64,000 bases of DNA from Synechococcus elongatus PCC 11801 (GTDB taxonomy: Bacteria > Cyanobacteriota > Cyanobacteriia > Synechococcales > Synechococcaceae): positions 1,674,001 through 1,738,000 of the forward strand of contig NZ_CP030139.2 of assembly GCF_003846445.2 (NCBI RefSeq), written 5' to 3'. The notes beneath the pieces are model-generated. The model made no database searches. It was not told the DNA's origin and saw only the letters and a program-made list of their open reading frames with translations. How positions within the stretch are numbered: position 1 is the stretch's first letter; the number at the start of each line of letters is the position of its first letter. Positions 3,470 through 28,240 of the stretch are shown one piece after another. The position numbers and the translations under genes are program-made.

Positions 3470-4666
3470 TTAAGAGTGCAGCAGCGAGTCGAAGGGTTGG
3501 AGCAGCCAATTCAGACCCACCCGACATTGTTGCGTTGGAGTGGGCATCCGGTAAAGGTAGGCGAGGCGTCGCGCGACAGCAGCCAGTGGGCCTTCTAACG
3601 TCAGTCCCAACCCCGTTAGGGTCGCATTGCCAGAACCCAATGCCAGCATCTCTCCCAGCGCTTGGTACTGGAAGTCAGCCAAGGACTGATCTCGCCGTTG
3701 GGCAACCAAGTTGGCAGCCAGACAGCTGGCTTGTTGAAATGCCGCTTGAGCGGTAGCTGGAATCGCTTTGCCATCGACAGTGGGCAATTCTGCTAAATCC
3801 CCGAGCGCAAACAGGTTGTCGTAGCCGTTGATTTGTAGCGTCAGCTGAGTTTGCAGTTGACCCCGAGCATTTTTAGGTAAATCCAGAGCAGCCACCGCTG
3901 CAGGCACGCGGTTCCCCACAGTCCACAAGACCAGATCGATATTGCTGAGTCGTTCCGTTTGATCGCCGCGTTGCAGCACGATCGCATCGGCTTCCACAGC
4001 AGCCACGCCTGTTTTCAAATCCAAAAGAATCTGGCGCTGCTGTAAAGCTCGTTCTGCGGCTTCACGGTTAAATTCCGGCGAGTTGCGCAGGATGTCTTCA
4101 CCTAACTCAATCAGGCGAATCCAGGCACGATCGCCCAAGCGATCAGCTAGCTTGCAAGCCAGCTCAACCCCACTGGGACCCGCTCCAACCACCGCAATGC
4201 GGACTTGGCGATCGGGCTGACGCTCCAACTCGCTCAACCGGGCATTGAGGGCGATCGCATCCTCTAAGCTGCGGAACGGCAGCGCATGGGTTTCTGCTCC
4301 AGGAGCAAGATCACGAGGCGTTTCACCACCCAAAGCCAATACCAACTGGCCAAACTCAAAGACTTGTCCCGATTCCAGAACGACGCGCTGTTGCTGGAGA
4401 TCGACTTCGCTCACTACGCCGCGATGGAATTGGATCGGCGTATTCGCCAGCAGATCGCGATAGCGGGGGGCGACTTCCCAGGCCTGCAGCTCGCCTGTGA
4501 TCAGTTCGTAGAGCAGCGGTAAAAAGACAAAGCGATCGCTGCGATCGATCAGGTGAATGGCGGGACGCGTGACACCTTGCCAAGACTGTTGGGCGAGCGC
4601 CAGTGCTGTGTAGAGTCCGCCAAATCCACCGCCGAGAATACAGATTGCTGAGTTGGCGCTGACCAT
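3470..4666 (-). CDS. Type 2 NAD(P)H dehydrogenase (NDH-2, FAD-dependent)
   Basis: 398-residue flavoprotein that would pass electrons from NAD(P)H to quinone without pumping protons. The N-terminal FAD-binding Rossmann motif is ICILGGGFGGLYTALALAQ, and the second nucleotide-binding fold is VRIAVVGAGPSGVELACKL. The FAD-contacting DNLFALGDLAEL motif lies in the last third. The start chosen is the ATG read from 4664-4666 (MVSANSAIC); an upstream in-frame ATG would add a basic, low-complexity 36-residue extension that the family lacks. No transmembrane helix is obvious, so membrane contact would be peripheral. Cyanobacterial NDH-2 enzymes (Ndb) are often proposed to sense or poise redox state; which Ndb type this is cannot be decided here. 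Confidence 0.9.
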   Translation of the reverse strand: MVSANSAICILGGGFGGLYTALALAQQSWQGVTRPAIHLIDRSDRFVFLPLLYELITGELQAWEVAPRYRDLLANTPIQFHRGVVSEVDLQQQRVVLESGQVFEFGQLVLALGGETPRDLAPGAETHALPFRSLEDAIALNARLSELERQPDRQVRIAVVGAGPSGVELACKLADRLGDRAWIRLIELGEDILRNSPEFNREAAERALQQRQILLDLKTGVAAVEADAIVLQRGDQTERLSNIDLVLWTVGNRVPAAVAALDLPKNARGQLQTQLTLQINGYDNLFALGDLAELPTVDGKAIPATAQAAFQQASCLAANLVAQRRDQSLADFQYQALGEMLALGSGNATLTGLGLTLEGPLAAVARRLAYLYRMPTPTQQCRVGLNWLLQPFDSLLHS

Positions 4667-4885
4667 GATGCGCGGTGCCACTGTAAGGTTTTGTCTCTTC
4701 TGCAGGATAACGATTTGCCGCGATCGCCGCCGGTCTCGTGGCTGACGTTGTGGAAGGCTCAGGGATTGCTGCAACTAACGGTTGCCTGAGCAATATTCAG
4801 GGCGATCCAAAGAGTTCCTGCAGTTTGCGGATGGTTCTAAAAAGGGAATGTCAAACTGAGGATATTCCTGCTCCCTTTTACTTCT

Positions 4886-5146
4886 ATGGCCAAGCACACC
4901 CAGGCCCACATGTCGCGCCGCGTCAGCAAATTTAAGCCCGGCGGACTGAGCACGATGACGCGCAAGCAGATGGAATATTACATGGGTGCCAAGCTGCTGG
5001 AATTGGGCGTTGAACCGAAGTCGGCGATCTATCGCTGGGAAACGACCGAGGAAGGCAACGACGCCATTTACACCTACAGTGCCTATTGGGGTGAGTCGCG
5101 GCAGCAGATTGAACAGGGTCTTGAACCCGCTGCACCGACGGCCTAG
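4886..5146 (+). CDS. Small conserved cyanobacterial protein, function unknown
   Basis: 86 residues, [20 protein letters not shown] at the N terminus, then [19 protein letters not shown] and a [20 protein letters not shown] stretch. It is basic at the front and acidic at the back, with no signal peptide or membrane segment. I do not recognise a named domain. No good Shine-Dalgarno sequence precedes the ATG at 4886; a second ATG at 4910 is possible. It lies 41 bp upstream of cysH on the same strand and could be cotranscribed with it. The 219 bp before it, shared with the divergent NDH-2 gene, contain an imperfect inverted repeat (GCTCAG 4757-4762 with CTGAGC 4786-4791, and GCAAC/GTTGC inside). 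Confidence 0.7.
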
Positions 5147-5187
5147 CTCTAGCTCTTCATTCTGTTGCGATCGCTCAAACGAATTCC

Positions 5188-5886
5188 ATGCCTGCTTTGT
5201 TGCCCAACCTGACCGAAATCAATGCTCAGCTTGCTGATCAAGAAGCCACGCAGATCATTCAGTGGGCAGCAACTGAATTTGGCTCAGGGCTGGTTCTCAG
5301 CACAAGTTTTGGCATTCAGTCGGCGGTGATGCTGCACTTGGCTACTCAGGTGCAGCCGGATATTCCGGTGATTTGGATCGACACGGGTTATCTTCCTGCA
5401 GAGACTTATCAGTTTGCGGCAGAGCTGACGGAACGGCTCAAGCTGAATCTCAAGGTCTATCAATCCGAAATTAGTCCGGCGCGGATGGAAGCGCTCTATG
5501 GGCGGTTGTGGGAGAGCGAGTCGGTTGAGGATTTCAACCGCTATGACCAGCTACGCAAGGTAGAGCCGATGAATCGCGCCTTGCGGGAATTGGGTGCAAC
5601 GGCTTGGTTATCGGGCGTACGGCGGCAGCAAACGGCTCATCGCCAGTCGATGCAAATTGTCGACTTCAAGGATGATCGCTATGCAATTCGGCCGATTCTC
5701 GGCTGGCACTCCCGCGACATTTATCAATATCTGACTGCTCACGATCTGCCCTACCATCCGCTCTTTGATCAGGGCTACGTCACCGTTGGCGACTGGCATT
5801 CCAGCCGTCCTCTGCAGGCGGACGACAGTGATGAGCGCAGCACTCGTTTCAGGGGCTTAAAGCAAGAGTGCGGCCTGCACTTGTAA
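5188..5886 (+). CDS. cysH: Phosphoadenylyl-sulfate (PAPS) reductase
   Basis: Reduces PAPS to sulfite with thioredoxin in assimilatory sulfate reduction (cytoplasm). The 232-residue product shows the PP-loop-like [15 protein letters not shown], the VIWIDTGYL strand, the [11 protein letters not shown] basic patch and the C-terminal catalytic ECGLH box (residues 227-231). The Cys pairs that bind a 4Fe-4S cluster in APS reductases are absent, which points to the PAPS-using type. The C terminus ends right after the catalytic box, as in the short enterobacterial-type enzyme. It converges on the O-methyltransferase gene with only 12 bp between stops and no clear terminator. cysE at 13.6 kb serves the same pathway further down. 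Confidence 0.95.
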
Positions 5887-20385: not shown

Positions 20386-20874
20386 TTATTTCTGGGATGC
20401 TGCAGTATCTGGCATCTTCGAAGAATGATGGTGAACAATCAGCCACTTCCCATCGTCTTGACGTTCGTAGATGTAGGTGTAGCGTGCTTGCACTGTCTGA
20501 GGTTTGCCATCCGCACCCGTCAGGCTGAAGGTATAGGTGCCGACATCAAAAGCGATATTGCAACCCAGCTTGACAGTCCGCTGATTGATCTGACCTTGAG
20601 GACGTAGCTTCAAGAACTCAACAAAATACGCCTGAATTGTCTCTGGACTCGTCTTCGGTTCGTTAGCAACGGTTGCCAAGAGAACGGCATTGGGAGCGTA
20701 GTTGCGGGCAACAGCAGCAGGATCAAGGGTTGCTAGCGATTGGTTCCAGCGATCAAACAGCGCGGTGACGTCAGTAGTACTAACCGGTGCGCAGGTCAAT
20801 GGACTGGCCGGCGGATTGGCCCACGCTGGGGTCACGGTGCCCGCAACAACCAAAGCGGTGAGAAGCCATTTCAT
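20386..20874 (-). CDS. Secreted SnoaL/DUF4440-like (NTF2-fold) protein
   Basis: 162 residues. A clear Sec signal peptide, MKWLLTALVVAGTVTPAWA, ends at an AWA cleavage motif. The mature domain has the NTF2-like layout seen in SgcJ/EcaC and calmodulin-kinase-association-like proteins: TALFDRWNQSLATLDPAAVA and YAPNAVLLATVANEPKTSPE, then QAYFVEFLKLRPQGQINQRT, and finally QARYTYIYERQDDGKWLIVH with HHHSSKMP. The paired strands carrying HHHSS are typical of this fold. Proteins of this type may bind small ligands or calcium, but none is proven here. It should be periplasmic or secreted. Convergent with the DUF6761-like gene. Confidence 0.75.
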   Translation of the reverse strand: MKWLLTALVVAGTVTPAWANPPASPLTCAPVSTTDVTALFDRWNQSLATLDPAAVARNYAPNAVLLATVANEPKTSPETIQAYFVEFLKLRPQGQINQRTVKLGCNIAFDVGTYTFSLTGADGKPQTVQARYTYIYERQDDGKWLIVHHHSSKMPDTAASQK

Positions 20875-24489: not shown

Positions 24490-25878
24490 ATGAATCAGAA
24501 GTTGAGCCGGTTCCTCAAATACTCTTGGGGCTATGTTTTGATGGCTTGTTCGCTCGCGATCGCACTAGTGTTCAGCAACCCTGTTAAAGCAAAGTTACCA
24601 CTAGGCGATCGCCCAACTTGGGGAAATGCTGTCACAGAAACTAGCCCTGCTTACCGGCAAGCACTCAGCCAAGCAAAGACGTTTCGGATGCCGGCTGAGT
24701 TTGAACCGATCGCCTCAATCTGGATGGCTTATCCAACCTATGAAAATCGGGAGGGTTATCCATCTCAGGTAGTGCAGGAAGCGATGGTCAAAGCGATCGC
24801 ACCAACAGTCAAAATTGATTTTCTATTGAATGAATCTGAAGAAGAAGCGATCGTGAATGGTTGGCTCAAAACAGCAGGGATTCCAGCTAGCCAAGTTCGC
24901 TATCACGTGGTTCCTCACGAGGACCTTTGGATTCGCGATATGGGCCCGATTTTTGCAGTGAATACGAATCAAACTCAAGTTGTTGATTTTGGCTTCAATG
25001 CTTGGAGTTATCTTGCTGCCACTGATCCAGTAGCGATGACTGATGAACAGGTCGATCGCAAGGTGGCTGGCGATCTTGATTTGCCCATTCTTCGCTCGAG
25101 CTTAATTAGTGAGGGCGGCAATCGAGAATTTAATGGCAAAGGCACATTGATGCTGACAGAAGCGGTCGAGCTACAGCGCAATCCTGGTCTAACTAAACAA
25201 GAGATTGAGACGGAACTAAAACGGGTCTTTAATCTTAAAAAAGTGATTTGGCTGAAGGAAGGTGTCATCGATGACGAACTGTCCTATCGTGGTAAGTTGC
25301 CAGATGGGAGTCTGACAGTATTAGCGACCGGTGGCCATATTGATGAATATGCGCGTTTCGTTGATCCCAATACGATTTTATTGGCGGAAGTAACTGCAGA
25401 AGAACGAGCGACTGATCCCCTGGCTGCAATCAACTATCAGCGGCTGGAGGAGAATTTGAAAATTCTGCAAGCTGCGACCGATCAGGATGGAAAGCCCTTT
25501 CGAATCGTTCGGATTCCTGCGGCTAAGCCCATTCACGTGACCATGACTCAAAAAGATTCCATCTTTCAGGCTCTGCAAGAACTCACGTTTGAAGATAGCA
25601 CCGTGATTCAAGATGATGATCAGATCAAAACAATTTTGGCCGCTAGCTATCTGAACTTTGTCATCGCCAATGATGTTGTGATTATTCCTAGCTACTGGCA
25701 GCCGGGTCGTGATTTGGAATATCAGCAAAAAGACCAAGCTGCTCTAGCTGTCTTTGAGTCAGTCTTTCCTAACAAGAAGATCGTGATGATCAACCCAGAA
25801 AACATCAACGCCGGTGGTGGCGGCATGCATTGCATCGTTCAGCAGCAAGCTGTCGTTGATGAAGCGATCACTAAATAA
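24490..25878 (+). CDS. Agmatine deiminase (peptidyl-arginine deiminase family) with signal peptide
   Basis: Hydrolyses agmatine to N-carbamoylputrescine, part of arginine-to-polyamine metabolism. From the ATG at 24490 the product has 462 residues. Family motifs: FEPIASIWMAYPTYENREGY, VVPHEDLWIRDMGPIF (with the acidic substrate contacts), EGGNREFNGKGT, ATGGHIDEYARFVDPNTILL and the C-terminal catalytic GGGGMHC, Cys448. Unlike most agmatine deiminases it begins with an export signal: basic MNQKLSRFLKYSWGY, a hydrophobic core ACSLAIALVF and an AxA-like VKA site near residue 34. A LMAC sequence in the core is a weak lipobox alternative. It is probably periplasmic or thylakoid-lumenal, which is odd for a polyamine-pathway enzyme. 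Confidence 0.87.
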   Translation: MNQKLSRFLKYSWGYVLMACSLAIALVFSNPVKAKLPLGDRPTWGNAVTETSPAYRQALSQAKTFRMPAEFEPIASIWMAYPTYENREGYPSQVVQEAMVKAIAPTVKIDFLLNESEEEAIVNGWLKTAGIPASQVRYHVVPHEDLWIRDMGPIFAVNTNQTQVVDFGFNAWSYLAATDPVAMTDEQVDRKVAGDLDLPILRSSLISEGGNREFNGKGTLMLTEAVELQRNPGLTKQEIETELKRVFNLKKVIWLKEGVIDDELSYRGKLPDGSLTVLATGGHIDEYARFVDPNTILLAEVTAEERATDPLAAINYQRLEENLKILQAATDQDGKPFRIVRIPAAKPIHVTMTQKDSIFQALQELTFEDSTVIQDDDQIKTILAASYLNFVIANDVVIIPSYWQPGRDLEYQQKDQAALAVFESVFPNKKIVMINPENINAGGGGMHCIVQQQAVVDEAITK

Positions 25879-25941
25879 TCAACCAACGTCTAGCTAGCAA
25901 AGCAGTTAGCAGAAGCTAGCGATCGCTACTGGATTAAAAAA

Positions 25942-26028
25942 CGGAGAGGGTGGGATTCGAACCCACGTCGGCTGTTACCCCGAACCTCATTTCGAGTGAG
26001 GCGCATTCGACCACTCTGCCACCTCTCC
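25942..26028 (-). tRNA. tRNA-Ser, anticodon CGA
   Basis: The minus strand folds into a class II tRNA. The acceptor stem GGAGAGG pairs with CCTCTCC, discriminator G. The anticodon arm CCTCA-CTCGAAA-TGAGG holds anticodon CGA (plus-strand 25992-25994, reading TCG). There is a long variable arm with TCGG/CCGA and a T arm GTGGG-TTCGAAT-CCCAC. It reads codon UCG. CCA is not encoded; a run of T follows on the minus strand and may end transcription. Confidence 0.97.
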
Positions 26029-26065
26029 AGGTGTTTAGCCATCTTACAACCCAACCTCGACGGAA

Positions 26066-28240
26066 TCAAAGCAATCCCGGGCGAGAAGTTTGAGCGATCG
26101 CGGATTGTAGGGAGCCATTGGGAGTCCAGCGCCAGGCTTGATGGCGAGTGCGGCCATCGGGTTGTCGCGTGCTGGCGTCACTGGATTGCAGACTGGTGGG
26201 AGCCGTACTGCCACTGATCCATCCTTTGATTTGAATTGACGGTAGCCAGCCCCGAGGGAGGCGATCGCTTTCTGACCAGAGCCAAGCTTGGGAGGGTAAT
26301 GGAGGCAGATCGCGCAGGCTCCAACGATCGCTACCGCGTTGAAACAGCCAGAGCCACTGCTCGCCCTGCCAGCTCAGTTGCCAGAGATTCGGCGTACGGC
26401 TGAGCCACTGTAATTTCAGGTTGGGCCACTGAATTGCTTGTCCCGGTTGCAGACTTTGCGAACTGAAAATTTGGCGAATCGGCCATTGATCCTGAACGGT
26501 ACAGCGATCGCTGAGCTGCAGGACCCAGTCCAGTTGATTGATGCCCTGTTGTTCTAGGTAAGGCTGGAGATCCCAACGTAAGCTGCGATCGCTGGCTCCA
26601 CAGACCAAGCCCACCTGACCGCGATCGCGCACAACAGCGAGCGGCCCATCACTGCTCAAAAACAGAATTTCCTGCTGGGTCGCTGCTTGGGCCAGTCCTG
26701 GCAGCAAGACGATCGCAATCAACGCCACTGCCAGCGATCGCCAACGGCGGCGCAGTCGGGGCCAAGTCAGCAGCAGCGCATAGCTGAGATAGCAGAGCAG
26801 CACGACGACCATCGCAATCTGTCCAGTTGCCCAAGTTGCTCCGGGTAGATTGGCGATCGCACTCACGATGCTGATCAGGAGCCAGAGTGGTGCACCAAGC
26901 AGCCAAGCTGCAACACTCCCAAGGGGCAGCCAAACCAGCGAGAGTAGACCAGCCCAAACGCCACCAATCCCCAAAATTGCTAAGAGTGGTGTCACCAGCA
27001 CATTGGCCGGAATTGCGTAGGGAGAGAGGGTGCCAAAGGCGTGCAGTTGCAGCGGTAGCGTCCAGATTGTGGCAGCTAGTGGCACGGCAATCAGGACCGC
27101 CAGTCGAGGCGGTAGCCAGTCCAAGCGATCGGTAATCGGTTGCACACTGACGACTAGCCCCAAGGTTGCCAAAAAGCTGAACTGAAAGCCTAGGTCTTCA
27201 ATCCAGAGCGGTTGCCAGAGCAGCAGCGCAGTTGCCACCAAAAGCAGGGTCGGGAGCGTCTGGGGCGATCGCTGGCGTAGCAGTGCCCAGAGCTGGACTT
27301 CGCCCATCAGGAACGCCCGCAACAGCGATGCAGAACTGCCCGCAATACCCAGAAAACTAATCAGGGTGAGAGTGCCGATCGCGGCTTGCCAACGAGGCGA
27401 GAGGCTACGGCAGCAAGCTAGGGTCAACCCCAGCAGCAAGGCAACCTGAAAGCCGGAGGCAGCCGTCGCATGGGCCAAGCCACAGCGCAGGAAATCTTCG
27501 GGGAGCGTCCCCGGGAGTCGGGCTAAGCCATTGCCAAAGCTCAGGGCGGCTAGGGCTGAACCTTGATCGGAACCTAAGCCTTGTCGGAAGGCAGCCAAGA
27601 TGCGGCGACGCACCGGCTCGAGGCTCCAGAGCGGCGGATTGTCTTCCTTGAGTAGTTGTCCTCGAAATTCACTGAAAATTGATTGGCGCTGCAGGTAGCG
27701 CTGGCGATCGAAACCAGCAGGATTGCGTGGCGCTTGCAGCGATCGCAGCTCTCCTTCGAGAACAACTGTTTGCCCGGGCTGTAGCCCCTCTGCCACGGCA
27801 GTTAAGCGAACTGCGACCTGCCCTTGAAGTCCCTGACTTGGAGGGAGTTTCAGGGCTGTTTCAGAAGGATTGGGCGACCAAGTTTGGGCCGTCAGTGTGA
27901 AGGATTGGCCTTGGGCTTGCAGGCGGGGGCGATCGCTGATAGTTCCGACTAAAACGCCTGACCCTTGATCAGCCCAGCGGCTGATGTCTGTTGCACTCGG
28001 TGTCGGTAAGCGTAGGTAAAACCAAAAGCCGGCGGCGTAAAGCGCGATCGCCGCCCAAAGCCAGATGCGGAACGAGAACCGTCGCTGCCCCGATCGCGGT
28101 AAAAGCGGATAGCCTGCGATCGCGATTGCTGCCCAGACTAGGCCGGCAAAGACCCAGCCAACCGGCAATGGTGACTGACTGGCGAGGAAGAAACCCGCGA
28201 TCGCGAAAGCACAGCAGAGATAGACTGCCGTGGGCGCCAT
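26066..28240 (-). CDS. comEC: DNA uptake channel ComEC/Rec2
   Basis: Inner-membrane channel that takes up single-stranded DNA in natural transformation, for which S. elongatus is known. 724 residues from the ATG read at 28238-28240. Order: N-terminal hydrophobic segments, a DUF4131-like soluble part (GVLVGTISDRPRLQAQGQSF, VRLTAVAEGLQPGQTVVLEG), the competence domain with many helices (CGLAHATAASGFQVALLLGL, GIAGSSASLLRAFLMGEVQL), then a C-terminal beta-lactamase-like remnant of about 200 residues. In that remnant the HxHxDH metal site is missing; the equivalent strand reads LDWVLQLSDRCTVQDQ. It lies downstream of glyQ on the same strand, 65 bp away. Confidence 0.93.
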   Translation of the reverse strand: MAPTAVYLCCAFAIAGFFLASQSPLPVGWVFAGLVWAAIAIAGYPLLPRSGQRRFSFRIWLWAAIALYAAGFWFYLRLPTPSATDISRWADQGSGVLVGTISDRPRLQAQGQSFTLTAQTWSPNPSETALKLPPSQGLQGQVAVRLTAVAEGLQPGQTVVLEGELRSLQAPRNPAGFDRQRYLQRQSIFSEFRGQLLKEDNPPLWSLEPVRRRILAAFRQGLGSDQGSALAALSFGNGLARLPGTLPEDFLRCGLAHATAASGFQVALLLGLTLACCRSLSPRWQAAIGTLTLISFLGIAGSSASLLRAFLMGEVQLWALLRQRSPQTLPTLLLVATALLLWQPLWIEDLGFQFSFLATLGLVVSVQPITDRLDWLPPRLAVLIAVPLAATIWTLPLQLHAFGTLSPYAIPANVLVTPLLAILGIGGVWAGLLSLVWLPLGSVAAWLLGAPLWLLISIVSAIANLPGATWATGQIAMVVVLLCYLSYALLLTWPRLRRRWRSLAVALIAIVLLPGLAQAATQQEILFLSSDGPLAVVRDRGQVGLVCGASDRSLRWDLQPYLEQQGINQLDWVLQLSDRCTVQDQWPIRQIFSSQSLQPGQAIQWPNLKLQWLSRTPNLWQLSWQGEQWLWLFQRGSDRWSLRDLPPLPSQAWLWSESDRLPRGWLPSIQIKGWISGSTAPTSLQSSDASTRQPDGRTRHQAWRWTPNGSLQSAIAQTSRPGLL

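Follow-up and report, generated by a model that had tools for sequence, protein, structure and literature searches.

A predicted Sec-exported protein of the agmatine deiminase fold in Synechococcus elongatus PCC 11801, within a scattered bacterial subfamily

The closest described relatives of the protein analysed here are the agmatine deiminases (AguA/AIH; 2jer, 3h7k and 6nic), with which it has in common the pentein fold (predicted here), the Asp/His/Asp/Cys catalytic set and the channel tryptophans. In the plant AIH (MtAIH), as given in the available text of PMC6447857, Asp94, His224 and Asp226, beside Cys366, hold the guanidine group; Trp91 and Trp125 give the channel its shape, and the amine is in contact with Asp220 and, via water, with Asp89. 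In some bacteria, AguA-AguB and AguA-AguY clusters were suggested in 2025 to serve the catabolism of exogenously acquired agmatine (PMC12283126, accessible text): agmatine is converted to N-carbamoylputrescine, which is then hydrolysed, and the clusters sometimes hold a polyamine-binding protein for agmatine uptake. Some relatives of the present protein would likewise use these two conversions, with the difference that deimination would precede import.

Exported members of the family are already known. Agu2A' of Pseudomonas aeruginosa, encoded in the agu2ABCA' operon, has been reported among experimentally identified Tat substrates (PMC6085387, available part, which cites Williams et al. 2010). 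Like the present protein, it belongs to the agmatine deiminase family and carries an export signal (the Agu2A'-type copy at our locus L085 has identical leader letters). Its leader is of the Tat type, unlike the predicted Sec leader described below; it lies beside AguB and an extracellular solute-binding protein, with no NhaC-type gene among 9 annotated features, and has 6 core cysteines. PPAD of Porphyromonas gingivalis shares the fold, the catalytic residues and (as predicted here) export, and differs in its Ig-like and C-terminal domains, its carboxylate-binding arginines and its C-terminal-arginine peptide substrates (PMC4893104, available text). For cyanobacteria, Schriek et al. 2007 (PMC2242806) listed syc1643_d and syc1703_c of S. 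elongatus PCC 6301 in their Table 5, both as agmatine deiminases; the terms 'signal peptide' and 'periplasm' occur nowhere in the main text of that paper. A literature search, mostly outside subscription papers, found no description of a Sec/lipoprotein subfamily or of NhaC-linked clusters such as those reported below.

The window, i.e. the whole stretch of DNA that was analysed, comprises 64,000 nucleotides of S. elongatus PCC 11801. The ORF at 24490-25878 (+) is complete, with its ATG at 24490 and a TAA at 25876-25878, and encodes 462 amino acids. The following parts were mapped:

24490..25878 (+): agmatine deiminase-like protein, predicted to be exported (ORF with ATG and TAA, domain match)
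24490..24591 (+): predicted Sec signal peptide, residues 1-34, with a basic n-region, a hydrophobic core at about residues 15-29 and putative cleavage at VKA/K (sequence, hydropathy and shuffles, kept in the genus relative L019)
24592..24687 (+): mature N-terminal segment, residues 35-66, ahead of the domain and under strong coding constraint (dN/dS 0.051 for residues 36-66)
24685..25848 (+): PAD_porph (PF04371) catalytic domain, residues 66-453 (Pfam, AlphaFold2 model, structural matches)
24937..24939 (+): Asp150, the guanidine-binding Asp of WxRDxGP (57/57 subfamily and 19/19 comparison rows; role by analogy to MtAIH Asp94)
25111..25113 (+): Glu208 of EGGNRE, invariant in 57/57 subfamily and 19/19 comparison rows, which we take to have an active-site role
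25276..25326 (+): residues 263-279, an insertion found only in the subfamily and preceding the catalytic His (17-22 residues long in 57 subfamily rows vs 1 in 19 comparison rows)
25336..25344 (+): His283 and Asp285, the catalytic His-x-Asp (invariant in 76/76 rows)
25519..25644 (+): enlarged linker, residues 344-385, near the lid region (35-48 residues in the subfamily vs 10-31 in comparison rows)
25831..25833 (+): Cys448, catalytic nucleophile and sole cysteine of the mature protein (family position, alignment, cysteine count)

The match to PF04371 reached 264.4 bits (cut-off 25) and covered profile positions 1-320 of 321, and the protein ends 9 residues past the catalytic domain. The motif GGGGMHC was found at residues 442-448, which places Cys448 at the catalytic position of the family, and the Asp, His, Asp, Cys set of AguA is present as D150, H283, D285 and C448; a sequence-only reading of this gene had called the catalytic protein complete, which is borne out. 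Asp150, Glu208, His283, Asp285 and Cys448 were invariant in all 76 aligned rows (57 subfamily and 19 comparison). In the same profile searches, matches to CPSF100_C and Cas6 were both below their own cut-offs. The AlphaFold2 model had a mean pLDDT of 88.3, with residues 1-47 below 50 and 378/462 residues at 90 or higher. When the predicted structure was compared by VIA-align, the first eight entries, which are known or putative agmatine deiminases, had Z scores of 44.6-46.0 and PPAD had about 34-35; a shared fold does not prove the substrate.

The leader proposed in that reading (basic segment, hydrophobic core and VKA site) is present in all its parts: the net charge of residues 1-14 is +3, the first acidic residue is residue 40, and V32-K33-A34 lies ahead of the putative cleavage point. 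The best 12-residue hydropathy mean was 2.78, a value matched in 25 of 20,000 shuffles of residues 1-66, and ranked 5th among the 54 ATG ORFs of at least 150 amino acids in the window. There is no RR in residues 1-34 counted from the ATG; an alternative upstream TTG start would add RRSRR. The gene was compared codon by codon with L019, its 90%-identical relative from G386, the other genome of the genus in the set analysed (458 codons, no gap needed). dN/dS was 0.279 for residues 1-35, 0.051 for residues 36-66 and 0.051 for residues 67-458, and the hydrophobicity of the leader is kept in L019. Coding constraint therefore starts well before Met67, which adjoins the start of the domain, and a start at Met67 was rejected; a start downstream of the leader, named beforehand as an outcome that would speak against export, is disfavoured. 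A fast-evolving leader that keeps its hydrophobicity, followed by core-like constraint, fits what is expected of a translated, cleaved signal peptide and is left unexplained by a start at Met67.

Relatives were gathered from genome contigs with the peptide patterns EGGNRE[FV]N and EAVE[LM]QRN: 122 stretches were matched and 60 loci were confirmed. Since members were gathered by these two patterns, conservation within the pattern stretches is partly due to selection; Arg212 was kept in 12/12 rows that match the second pattern only, and Glu227 in 42/42 rows that match the first only. In a maximum-likelihood tree of 76 rows, 57 subfamily rows were split from 19 comparison rows with a support of 100/100; the program used for the tree warned of long branches and of uneven composition. 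The partial or unscored L052, L053, L073 and L076 were left out of the 57-row alignment. The comparison rows are a convenience set (including L001, the leaderless paralogue from the window genome, and Agu2A- and Agu2A'-type proteins) and do not stand for canonical AguA as such; they lack the subfamily insertions and have 4 to 11 core cysteines, and the Enterococcus faecalis (E. faecalis) AguA row is leaderless. The window protein lies within the clade, carries the 17-22-residue insertion and has a hydrophobic leader, and belongs to what we name here the exported EGGNRE subfamily.

A hydrophobic leader was called in 54/61 subfamily rows (59 of the 60 loci, without the broken frame L081, plus the window protein and L019), which answers the suggestion that homologues be checked for the same leader. 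A lipobox was found in 40 rows with a permissive pattern that is loose and missed likely cases too. Among the seven rows with no called leader, L052, L053 and L073 were unscorable, and L055, L075, L077 and L078 look complete. The statement that agmatine deiminases are normally cytoplasmic needs qualifying: Agu2A' is a reported Tat substrate (PMC6085387, available part), and most of the subfamily members gathered here carry a leader.

Core cysteines averaged 2.46 in the 57 subfamily rows vs 6.53 in the 19 comparison rows; the rows are related, so that cysteine counts, like the neighbour counts below, are not independent samples and the comparison does not amount to a formal test. The four complete leaderless rows have 7, 7, 12 and 9, whereas the other 53 subfamily rows have a mean of 1.98 and a maximum of 6; the window protein and L019 have one each, the nucleophile. 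Such a distribution would suit Sec export into surroundings in which free thiols are a disadvantage. The relation is not a simple rule: L005, L018, the Agu2A'-type protein and a Phyllobacterium protein, which are the four comparison rows with a leader, have 4 to 6 core cysteines.

L005 and L018, from other cyanobacteria, have RR-containing, Tat-like leaders followed by a Cys, and they group with the Agu2A'-type and Phyllobacterium proteins (100/100). Their leaders and their placement on the comparison side indicate that export occurs there too. The window protein lies outside this Agu2A' clade (100/100), and export shared by descent with Agu2A' was dropped as an explanation, the tree placing Agu2A' on the other side of the split.

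With respect to substrate, the AguA models TIGR03380 and NF010070 scored the window protein at 204.1 (cut-off 381.8) and 206.5 (cut-off 483), so that neither threshold was reached. L001 (225.5 and 232.3), the Agu2A'-type protein of L085 (245.6 and 249.9) and the other controls (L005, L018 and the Agu2A-type protein of L085) also fell under the cut-offs. Because L001 and the L085 proteins fail as well, the test is strict and the missed cut-offs are weak evidence against AguA; for the same reason they were ruled out as a mark of the subfamily.

By alignment placement, the window protein keeps the guanidine-binding set, both channel tryptophans (residues 147 and 172) and the equivalent of Asp89 (residue 145). 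At this Asp89 position, two residues ahead of the first channel Trp, 48/57 subfamily rows have D or E, and 51/57 have W at the place of the second channel Trp. The position of MtAIH Asp220, placed by alignment just before TNGH, is Ala279 in the window protein, behind the insertion; it is T, A, S, G or I across the subfamily, and comparison rows vary there too. The enlarged linker overlaps, by alignment, the region of the gate-keeping loop described for the plant AIH (PMC6447857, available text). With the guanidine set kept and Asp220 not, agmatine is plausible as the substrate but is not settled from the pocket. The name 'agmatine deiminase' accordingly stands for the fold and the catalytic residues; the protein belongs to a separate subfamily, and the case for agmatine itself draws on gene context in other bacteria.

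Across the 60 subfamily loci, the neighbours included NhaC-like genes (19), PF00144 hydrolases (16, of which 6 are weak with E 1e-11 to 1e-17), class III aminotransferases (12, one being the GABA type of L069 and one lying in the short locus L076), AsnC-type regulators (9), carbamoylases (9), aldehyde dehydrogenases (8, with 1 weak in L042) and AguB-like genes (7); family assignments of neighbours were made on examples. A Pfam tally of 72 of the 88 neighbour ORFs, from 45/60 loci, gave 10/72 for class III aminotransferases and 7/72 for PF00144. In 7 of the 8 loci titled Acidobacteria/Acidobacteriota, the deiminase is followed by an NhaC-type gene (PF03553), with an AguB-like gene after it in 6; the contig of L026 ends before the place of the AguB-like gene, and L034 lacks both. 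Eleven Bacteroidota/Balneolota loci (L036, L039, L041, L057, L058, L059, L061, L065, L067, L068 and L072, some on contigs that end early) have an NhaC-type gene downstream (11), a strong PF00144 hydrolase (10), a class III aminotransferase upstream (10) and, mostly in the opposite direction, a carbamoylase (9), an AsnC-type regulator (8) and an aldehyde dehydrogenase (7). L069 carries an NhaC-type gene, a GABA transaminase-like gene, the deiminase and an AguB-like gene. Outside these three recurrent arrangements, none of the amine genes looked for was found, and 41/60 loci showed no NhaC-like gene. Eight NhaC-bearing genomes had 1 to 5 reported PF03553 matches each, so that adjacency in 19 loci, related as these are, is unlikely to be due to chance.

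Five of the seven AguB-like proteins were scanned and scored 295-313 bits, under the curated cut-off of 410. Solved relatives of the carbamoylase include N-carbamoyl-beta-alanine and N-carbamoyl-amino-acid amidohydrolases, and those of the aminotransferase include polyamine:pyruvate and putrescine transaminases, behind a 4-aminobutyrate transaminase; both enzymes fit a ureido-amine product. The gene sets fit N-carbamoylputrescine as the product, followed either by hydrolysis to putrescine or by transamination, oxidation and decarbamoylation to GABA, and the NhaC-type proteins would import N-carbamoylputrescine.

Several explanations of where the protein acts were weighed. That it is cytoplasmic, its leader untranslated (start near Met67) or non-functional, is barely credible: the family domain does begin beside Met67 and the paralogue L001 is leaderless, but residues 36-66 are constrained like the core, the leader character is kept in the genus relative and cysteines are few. 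An enzyme anchored in the membrane, with the leader uncleaved or Cys20 lipidated and the catalytic domain tethered on the external side of the membrane, is unlikely. Many relatives look like lipoproteins, and L024, from the clade of the window protein, has a lipobox with the same LMAC. In the window protein, however, Cys20 is preceded by LMA and the hydrophobic stretch SLAIALVFS comes next, which weakens a lipoprotein reading; a good VKA/K site follows, and no lipobox occurs in L023, which is the closest row from another genus. The lipid modification at Cys20 that had been proposed is thus not favoured. Export of the window protein, as originally suggested, is well supported by the leader kept in L019, the constraint upstream of the domain, the leaders of the subfamily and the scarcity of cysteines; cleavage at VKA/K would leave the enzyme in an extracytoplasmic compartment.

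For an exported enzyme, the choice of substrate has its own alternatives. It is rather unlikely that the substrate is another small guanidino compound (free arginine, guanidinobutyrate or a related one), with the amine end of the site remodelled by the insertions. The differing amine-contact residue and the two insertions unique to the subfamily speak for it, as do peptidase neighbours in place of amine genes in some loci (C69 in 2/60, DUF885 in 2/60 and an M14 peptidase beside the L036 deiminase); yet the most elaborate conserved neighbourhoods, with AguB-like genes or with aminotransferase, aldehyde dehydrogenase and carbamoylase genes, fit a product that bears both a free amine and a carbamoyl group. 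The shared Pfam family name, export and the few peptidase neighbours would also suit a peptidylarginine deiminase like PPAD, citrullinating extracellular peptides or proteins. This is very unlikely: the positions of Arg152 and Arg154 (published peptide in the available text of PMC4893104, motif-aligned) are Ala171 and Ser173, with Arg at neither in 57/57 rows, the 9 residues after the catalytic domain leave no room for Ig-like or C-terminal domains, and the structural match of the model is weaker (Z about 35 vs about 45 for agmatine deiminases). Peptide citrullination was rejected as the main reading for lack of these arginines and of space for the extra domains. We consider it probable, with some reserve, that the product of the window gene is a guanidine deiminase with the agmatine deiminase fold, exported via Sec and most likely acting on external or periplasmic agmatine.

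The window genome holds a second PAD_porph protein, L001, which is leaderless, is encoded 99 kb away and scores higher in the Pfam genome search (393.5 vs 261.4 bits). In G386 the two genes lie at 1.774 Mb (+) and 1.840 Mb (-), an order and strand that fit syc1643_d and syc1703_c. Judged from position, strand and locus numbers, the S. elongatus orthologue of the exported copy is probably Synpcc7942_2461/syc1643_d. In a draw of 386 genomes from the phylum, 15 matched at E 1e-20 or better, with identities of 32-41% apart from the window genome; in a draw of 388 from the class, 3 matched at E 1e-40, namely two genus members and G540 (61% identical), whose single PAD_porph gene is the exported form. 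The 60 loci of the two-motif scan are mostly from Bacteroidota and Acidobacteriota; L023 comes from a Synechococcales MAG and L081 from Fischerella, and other phyla contribute a few. By sequence, the subfamily is scattered across bacteria. No relative was found in the viral contigs scanned, and plasmid tblastn returned 68 records, with at most 31.3% identity among the 60 matches listed.

Individual loci showed further features. In the Synechococcales MAG, a small multidrug resistance gene (PF00893, L023:4083-4406) lies directly upstream of the exported deiminase. The leader-bearing copy on the Fischerella PCC 73103 contig (L081) departs from the family sequence soon after EGGNREFNGKG, lacks the catalytic Cys motif and is apparently truncated. 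The leaderless member of Vibrio ostreicida (L055) lies between a C69 peptidase and a second, divergent PAD_porph gene, and L071 has, at about 4031-5800, a 589-aa open frame with a lipobox, extra N-terminal sequence and then the deiminase domain.

In the window, the flanking genes (named by sight) are an FGGY-type kinase, metK, tRNA-Ser and a ComEC-like gene, and no polyamine gene was evident among these neighbours. Promoter-like sites were at chance level (2 vs 1.7), and terminator-like sites were somewhat above it (4 vs 1.9, sd 1.3). In G386 (L092 7483-10428), about 2.9 kb with two ORFs (436 and 362 aa) separate the deiminase from the ComEC-like gene; the counterpart in the window (25879-26066) holds only the tRNA-Ser (25941-26029, -) and is a possible insertion site. 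A 162-aa ORF at 20386-20874 (-) also starts with a signal-peptide-like leader (...TPAWA).

After cleavage at VKA/K, the enzyme would work in the periplasm or another extracytoplasmic space, where Asp150, His283, Asp285 and Cys448 would hydrolyse a guanidino group, most likely that of agmatine, to give N-carbamoylputrescine and ammonia. In some relatives this would form an outside-in catabolism of agmatine, with the enzyme outside the inner membrane, the NhaC-type transporter as candidate importer of N-carbamoylputrescine, and then either an AguB-like amidase, giving putrescine, or an aminotransferase, an aldehyde dehydrogenase and a carbamoylase, giving GABA. These clusters are distant (~40% identity), and a function carried over from them to the window protein would be a transfer across that distance. 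A search for PF03553 gave no match in the window genome, G386 or G540; the window genome and G386 each encode, away from this gene, a single AguB-like protein scoring 294 bits, plus weaker matches, and those of G540 are weak only. The window organism has leaderless AguA-like and AguB-like proteins apart from this enzyme and lacks an NhaC-type gene, so that it more likely uses the enzyme to gain ammonia from extracellular agmatine or to remove it; as a guess from what is absent, this may be its role.

As a tentative proposal, for which we claim somewhat less than an even case, the Sec-exported subfamily would define an outside-in pathway in which agmatine is deiminated outside the inner membrane and N-carbamoylputrescine is imported via NhaC-family proteins and converted to putrescine (by AguB-like enzymes) or, through 4-ureidobutyrate, to GABA; a few cyanobacteria, including the S. 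elongatus group, would have acquired the exported enzyme alone, for taking ammonia from extracellular agmatine or disarming it. If this is true, one of the two genes that have been listed since 2007 as agmatine deiminases of the model cyanobacterium S. elongatus acts outside the cytoplasm, and it would therefore be wrong to regard the pair as redundant in making putrescine. The clusters of its relatives would point to a route for the use of extracellular agmatine, with NhaC-family proteins as candidate importers of N-carbamoylputrescine.
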